Assembly (NCBI GenBank): GCA_011772755.1
Contig: WVYX01000082.1
Location: 56,420 to 99,259, forward strand
DNA length: 42,840 nucleotides
Direction: 5' to 3'
Source of the DNA: Gemmatimonadales bacterium
GTDB taxonomy: Bacteria; Gemmatimonadota; Gemmatimonadetes; Gemmatimonadales; GWC2-71-9
The notes under the pieces were generated by a model that made no database searches, was not told the origin of the DNA, and saw nothing but the letters and a program-made list of their open reading frames with translations. Position 1 is the first letter of the stretch. Each line of letters opens with the position of its first letter. This document shows positions 20,680 to 21,279 of the stretch, one piece after another. The position numbers and the translations under genes were made by a program.

Positions 20680-20730
20680 CCCGCGTTGAAACGCGGGCTC
20701 GGCGCTGACGCGACGCGCCTTGAAAGGCGC
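20680..20730 (+). repeat. Left two-hairpin REP end
   Basis: Outer hairpin CCCGCGTTGAAACGCGGG (20680-20697), then CTCGGC, an 11-nt spacer, then inner hairpin GCGCCTTGAAAGGCGC (20715-20730). Both share the TTGAAA apex. It lies 22 bp beyond the transposase stop. Confidence 0.85.
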
Positions 20731-20752
20731 TAGCGACAGCGACGGGGATCAG

Positions 20753-21142
20753 TCAGCGGACTGGGATGGCGTGATCAGGATGGTGCGACCTTTGCCCAAG
20801 CACGTACCGGACCGCAGGACGCAGGTTCCGCGGACTCACTGATCGCACGACGTAGCCCTTCGCCCACCGGAGCCCGCTTCGAGAGATCTGTTCGTCCTTG
20901 TTCGCCAACCGCGCACTCACCCCCTTCAGAGACTTCACCAACGCGGGGACGTCGAACGCCAGCGGGAGCCGGAGAAGAAGGTGGAGATGATCGGAGACAA
21001 TACCCAGTGCTATGACTTCCGCACTGTGGCGTCGGGCCTCAGCAGGCAGGAACTCACGCAAGAAGCTGCTCTCCGACACACCAATCATCGGACGCTGGTC
21101 TCGCGTGGTCCAGCCTACGTGGACGAACAGTTGTCGGGCCAT
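20753..21142 (-). CDS. Y1/HUH transposase, REP-associated (RAYT-like)
   Basis: 129 residues. The metal-binding HUH motif is SDHLHLLLRLP (His-Leu-His). The nucleophile Tyr lies in AVRYVLGQRSHH, matching the Y-x-x-x-Q helix of the Y1 transposase family. The length fits IS200-type and REP-associated proteins. Family members nick and rejoin single-stranded DNA at hairpins through a 5'-phosphotyrosine link. The gene sits between inverted two-hairpin ends, leaving about 90 bp on its upstream side. No strong Shine-Dalgarno is seen, so expression may be low. Catalytic residues are intact. Whether it moves itself or only REP sequences is not decidable here. Confidence 0.9.
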   Translation of the reverse strand: MARQLFVHVGWTTRDQRPMIGVSESSFLREFLPAEARRHSAEVIALGIVSDHLHLLLRLPLAFDVPALVKSLKGVSARLANKDEQISRSGLRWAKGYVVRSVSPRNLRPAVRYVLGQRSHHPDHAIPVR

Positions 21143-21233
21143 TGCGCTAACAGGGACAAGGAGAGGTTAGCGGCGATCGGTGACGCGGACCGCACCGAAT
21201 GCATGCACTGAGGTACGGAATGCTGCATGCTCA

Positions 21234-21279
21234 GCATCTTTCAAGATGCGTCTGAGCCGAGCCCGCGTTTCAACGCGGG
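21234..21279 (-). repeat. Right two-hairpin REP end
   Basis: Inverted counterpart of the left end: inner hairpin GCATCTTTCAAGATGC (21234-21249), a 6-nt spacer, GCCGAG, then CCCGCGTTTCAACGCGGG (21262-21279). The outer 24 bp match the left end exactly. The inner stem differs at two paired positions. Confidence 0.85.

Follow-up and report, generated by a model that had tools for sequence, protein, structure and literature searches.

We propose that the inverted unit of about 600 bp at positions 20680-21279 of the window (the whole analysed stretch of 42,840 nucleotides from a Gemmatimonadales genome) is probably a REPtron, in which a single-copy Y1/HUH transposase lies between inverted REP units, REPINs are dispersed over the genome, and mobilisation goes via folded single strands. 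According to our analysis the element ends are REP units and the transposase-less inverted pairs found elsewhere in the genome are REPINs. The element is thus REPtron-like in organisation, with a single-copy transposase flanked by REPs and with REPs dispersed intergenically, many of them as inverted pairs; it is IS200-like in protein sequence and not in copy pattern. The folded shape of the units is what is conserved, because changes in their stems come in matched pairs, with loops and CTCGGC tag constant.

Anatomy of the inverted unit and its transposase

The transposase gene is placed between two-hairpin ends, and each end reads, from the outside inwards, outer hairpin, CTCGGC tag, spacer and inner hairpin (Table 1). 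At both ends the outer hairpin has a 7-bp stem and the inner one a 6-bp stem, each with a TGAA loop; the apex of the inner hairpin is written TTGAAA, and its outer T-A can pair, which gives 6 bp with a TGAA loop. Folding of the ends as single-stranded DNA gives both hairpins at each of them (z = -3.0 and -3.4), and the left unit lies 22 bp beyond the transposase stop. The hairpins are more than a chance feature, since the two-hairpin unit repeats about 40 times in the genome. An Rfam search gave no match at or above the gathering threshold.

Table 1. Features of the inverted unit (positions in the window)
Feature	Position	Strand	Basis or remark
Left outer hairpin CCCGCGT-TGAA-ACGCGGG, 7 bp, TGAA loop	20680..20697	+	ssDNA folding; same hairpin position in dispersed copies
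CTCGGC tag, left	20698..20703	+	reads GCCGAG on the opposite strand, where it is 5' of the outer hairpin; kept between both hairpins across genomes
Left spacer GCTGACGCGAC, 11 nt, long-spacer arm type	20704..20714	+	read from sequence; compared with dispersed copies
Left inner hairpin GCGCCT-TGAA-AGGCGC (GCGCCTTGAAAGGCGC)	20715..20730	+	sequence, folding, covariation
Y1/HUH transposase, 129 aa, H52-x-H54, candidate catalytic Tyr113, motif YVLGQRSHHP	20753..21142	-	Pfam Y1_Tnp 7.5e-16, profile match to ISDra2 TnpA, AlphaFold, Foldseek
Right inner hairpin, read inverted GCATCT-TGAA-AGATGC (GCATCTTGAAAGATGC)	21234..21249	-	sequence, folding, covariation
Right spacer, read inverted TCAGAC, 6 nt, short-spacer arm type	21250..21255	-	read from sequence; compared with dispersed copies
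Right tag, CTCGGC read inverted	21256..21261	-	GCCGAG on the + strand; kept across genomes
Right outer hairpin, read inverted CCCGCGT-TGAA-ACGCGGG	21262..21279	-	sequence, ssDNA folding

A first-pass annotation had drawn attention to the two inner hairpins, and they are read directly as it described, with GCGCC-TTGAAA-GGCGC on the left and GCATC-TTGAAA-GATGC on the right (minus strand, 21249-21234), a common TTGAAA apex and equal stem length. The two stem positions said to differ are the neighbouring positions 3 and 4, GC versus AT, with perfect pairing on both arms. The GAC which it noted before the inner hairpins is present at both ends of the element but is weakly kept elsewhere (5 of 17 units).

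The transposase has the features of the Y1/HUH family, namely an HuH motif, one catalytic tyrosine and the Y1 fold, and its catalytic motifs, DHLH and Y---Q, are intact. The signature YVLGQ (Y---Q) stands in place of Y---NP, which reads YIYINP in the E. coli RAYT, and its Q is invariant in the clade. A profile built from the relatives of the transposase found ISDra2 TnpA as its best match (3.5e-18), and Tyr113 aligns with the phenylalanine that replaces Y132 in the ISDra2 mutant structure 2xo6 (Y132F). The AlphaFold model (mean pLDDT 94) has 2xqc as its best Foldseek match, with ISDra2 TnpA, IS608 TnpA and the E. coli TnpA-REP 4er8 among the matches. In NCBIfam the protein is intermediate between two models, scoring 49.1 bits with NF033573 for IS200 (cut-off 55) and 30.7 bits with NF047646 for REP transposases (cut-off 80). 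It is the sole Y1_Tnp detected in this genome, which is incomplete (351 contigs, about 85% complete). Three close relatives were found by name in a scan with a four-sequence alignment, all of them Gemmatimonadota MAGs; same-family genomes carry the same clade of transposase, and no relative was found in the plasmid records searched. A tree including the E. coli RAYT was dropped as a means of placing the clade, its very long branch making it unreliable.

Dispersed units and covariation of their stems

Short matches to the element ends occur at many places in the host genome, which holds about 40 REP units; the covariance model R1 gave 53 matches at E <= 0.1. Of the 41 units taken into account, 30 are arranged in 15 pairs lying no more than 200 bp apart, with a median span of 114 bp, and all 15 have the same orientation (+ then -) with the outer hairpins outside. 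Two pairs are identical in sequence and flanks on two contigs, so that 14 are distinct. The inverted pairs are without transposase and usually without any ORF; in 10 of the 12 REPINs checked no coding-like ORF is overlapped, and several lie between converging genes. A third small hairpin is often observed in the spacer that separates the tag from the inner hairpin (GCCTTCGGC, GCGCTATCGCGC, ACGCTATCGCGT), with apparently paired changes, at L132-L138 (genome G018) and in several own-genome units.

These copies change the meaning of the left/right comparison in the window. The difference between the two inner hairpins had been presented as covariation within one element, which does not hold, both ends being members of a dispersed REP/REPIN family. 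Setting these two hairpins side by side would not by itself have made a strong case, as neither end has to descend from the other through point changes. Moreover, several dispersed REPINs have one arm with an 8-bp outer stem and a long spacer and the other with a 7-bp stem and a short spacer, and the left and right ends of the window's element repeat this spacer difference; the difference of their stems is therefore at least partly an old divergence of arm types, and change inside this one element is not required.

The evidence for covariation comes from the copies taken together. Across 15 own-genome units, 11 of 13 stem pairs changed on both sides, and the cells changed on both sides numbered 25 versus 7.6 in shuffled alignments, with none of 500 shuffles as high and slid controls at 6 or below. 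This 15-unit alignment was partly picked for its hairpins, so the test was repeated on units picked by the tag and TGAA loops alone, where Watson-Crick pairing reached 81.1% in the own-genome inner stem (58.8% shuffled, maximum 68.9%), 92.6% in the relatives' outer stem (51.5% shuffled, maximum 60.4%) and 79.8% in the relatives' inner stem (47.1% shuffled, maximum 56.1%). When all column pairs were ranked by background-corrected G, the inner-stem pairs took ranks 1-5 of 120 in the own genome, with the sixth at 26, and ranks 1-6 of 120 in relatives, where the outer-stem pairs took ranks 1-6 of 153 with a nearly invariant seventh at 18. The own-genome outer stem gave a weaker ranking (1, 9, 14, 16, 28, 41 and 104), partly because the 8-bp form with a 3-nt loop is out of register.

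Stem sequences are wholly different between genomes (CCCGCGT, CGCGGGC, CCCGGCT, CGAGGGC, CCCACGC and others), and tag, loop and stem length are constant across them. The outer loop is TGAA in 52 of 70 units, and a T stands just outside the outer hairpin at -1 in 83% and at -2 in 59%. The first-pass annotation had proposed a test of stem covariation over all genomic copies, which these copies pass, and its suggestion of selection on structure is supported by covariation that is strong and general across copies. Stem changes lacking a compensating partner, which it had named as evidence to the contrary, are present chiefly at the two basal inner pairs and were seen solely in a smaller share of the copies, most of which are weak.

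Association with one transposase clade, rival readings and a proposed mechanism

We defined the clade as same-family Y1 genes at least 40% identical to the window's transposase and scanned 700 bp of flank. A hairpin directly adjoining CTCGGC was found at 11 of 17 clade genes versus 0 of 20 other Y1 genes of the same family (Fisher 1.4e-5); the six clade genes failing this strict tag-plus-hairpin test include several with a variant arrangement by eye. Of the same-family genomes, 11 of 12 that carry the clade and 3 of 21 that lack it have strong units (Fisher 2e-5); phylum-wide, strong units are present in 20 of 200 genomes, and 19 of these 20 belong to that family. The Y1 genes of genome G021 are of another type, without the tag. 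In two genomes from a neighbouring family, G042 and G050 (loci L145-L155), CTCGGC two-hairpin units are present and a Y1 gene was not detected, G042 being estimated as 98% complete; transposase loss or missing sequence could explain this.

At L043 (genome G026) a clade transposase has a flanking tag that is CCCGAT-like instead of CTCGGC, possibly a tag shift. The same family also has a second type of Y1 transposase, about 30% identical, with other palindromes, of CCCCGGGG type, on its flanks (L054, ~1860-2200; L053, ~1430-1480), and at L054 GCGGCCCGGGGTTA-like units follow the second-type gene in a tandem array.

The most serious competitor, which we nevertheless regard as unlikely, is an insertion sequence of IS200/IS605 type moving as a unit, the scattered ends being its short palindrome-associated, MITE-like derivatives and the hairpins its subterminal recognition hairpins. 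The protein speaks for it, with its Y---Q motif, with ISDra2 and IS608 TnpA as nearest solved relatives and with the IS200 model outscoring the REP transposase model (49 vs 31 bits), but that score is below the IS200 equivalog cut-off, there is one transposase copy here and few, divergent copies in other carriers, and ends that are mutually inverted repeats, together with many divergent transposase-less inverted pairs, make a REPIN pattern.

It is much less probable that an RNA role keeps the hairpins, be it transcription termination, protection of mRNA 3' ends or regulation of transposase translation, and that the link to the transposase is secondary. The largely intergenic location of the units, several of them between converging genes, and the left unit lying just after the transposase stop would fit such a role; terminators and mRNA hairpins, however, can do without a fixed CTCGGC tag, a TGAA loop or an outer-edge T, and would not be expected to go with a single transposase clade. 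We give very little credence to the suggestion that the paired stem changes are mutational and not selected. Quasipalindrome correction is an established mutational process, and template switching during replication can perfect an imperfect palindrome in one step, changing both arms at once, yet it does not account for the constancy of stem length (7 and 6 bp), of the TGAA loops and of the tag distance among genomes with completely different stem sequences.

For the REPtron reading the following cycle seems most likely. In a single-stranded state, for instance in the lagging-strand template, the unit would fold; the transposase may recognise and bind the hairpins by their folded shape, by the TGAA loops and by the GCCGAG/CTCGGC tag, after which Tyr113 would cut near the outer hairpin, beside the conserved T or TT, and rejoin the strands, and short inverted pairs could be copied or moved by the transposase in trans. 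If the transposase reads loop, tag and shape, as we propose, stem bases would be free to change in pairs. Recognition by the transposase, which the first-pass annotation considered probable, is plausible from the gene association and the HUH/Y1 fold; we infer from these, and from the TnpA-REP and IS200/IS605 enzymes discussed below, that this transposase binds the folded unit, cuts it near the outer hairpin and mobilises it.

Some observations count against the REPtron model, namely copies with unpaired stem positions, the six clade genes failing the strict scan and the units of G042 and G050 without a Y1 gene. Nor was an empty site or new insertion found: in same-genus genomes the neighbouring hydrolase is kept at 72% identity and an M20 peptidase is absent within 1.5 kb; the locus arrangement is therefore not kept, and an empty site is not demonstrable there.

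Relation to known systems

TnpA-REP is known to recognise its hairpins in folded form and strand-specifically, a tag and certain positions of the loop being key to this, and both TnpA-REP and the ISDra2/IS608 enzymes bind folded single strands strand-specifically, reading bases of the loop, the shape of the stem and a tag on the 5' side (PMC8266576). The element shares with the RAYT/TnpA-REP systems of Escherichia, Pseudomonas and Stenotrophomonas (classes 2.2 and 2.5, Quentin et al. 2018) a single-copy, palindrome-flanked Y1/HUH transposase, dispersed inverted palindrome pairs, a tag beside the hairpin and a constant loop with a variable stem. Unlike class 2, it has Y---Q--[HR]HP instead of Y---NP and GCCGAG/CTCGGC instead of GT[AG]G 5' of the hairpin, and there are two hairpins per REP, sometimes with a small third one in the spacer.

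Class 3 TnpA-Y1, a rare class of Planctomycetes, Acidobacteria and Proteobacteria with about 600 hairpin copies in Solibacter, has been called intermediate between IS and REPtron; it has a CnGA foot 5' of atypical hairpins, NHVH and Y----Q motifs and a median length of 178 aa (Quentin et al. 2018, PMC6006769). Our element resembles it in its dispersed copies and in a CnGA foot (CCGA within GCCGAG, one base from the outer hairpin) and differs in DHLH, Y---Q and 129 aa, by comparison with the class description. With IS200/IS605 (ISDra2, IS608) it has in common the core fold, HUH, catalytic tyrosine, Y---Q motif and subterminal hairpins, whereas the unit is without TnpB, has inverted-repeat ends and coexists with many transposase-less inverted pairs; the near-identical full-length multiple copies typical of that family were not found, the genome at its estimated completeness having one copy.

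The combination of an IS200-like Y---Q transposase, a two-hairpin REP and a GCCGAG tag is unusual for a REPtron and occurs in one Gemmatimonadota family. We may tentatively suggest, as a possibility somewhat short of even, that a lineage of IS200 type (Y---Q) turned REP-associated in an origin separate from that of the Y---NP RAYTs, having a composite REP of its own with two TGAA hairpins around the CTCGGC/GCCGAG tag, and that the REPtron lifestyle arose more than once. This bears on one versus several origins of domesticated REP transposases from IS200-like ancestors. REP/RAYT biology is extended here to Gemmatimonadota, a phylum for which the literature searched held no description, and units with fixed loops and tag and with almost unconstrained stems offer a natural mutagenesis experiment on single-strand reading by a transposase.

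A class 2 RAYT was not found in the host genome. Another palindromic repeat, GTAGGGGCGTAGCATGCTACGCCCCTAC, whose two ends carry GTAG and CTAC ('double foot' REP-like), occurs there at 24 places with up to 3 mismatches, and at L202 (G000:C180:33866-33893) and at G000:C139:23409-23436 it lies between both arms of a CTCGGC REPIN.
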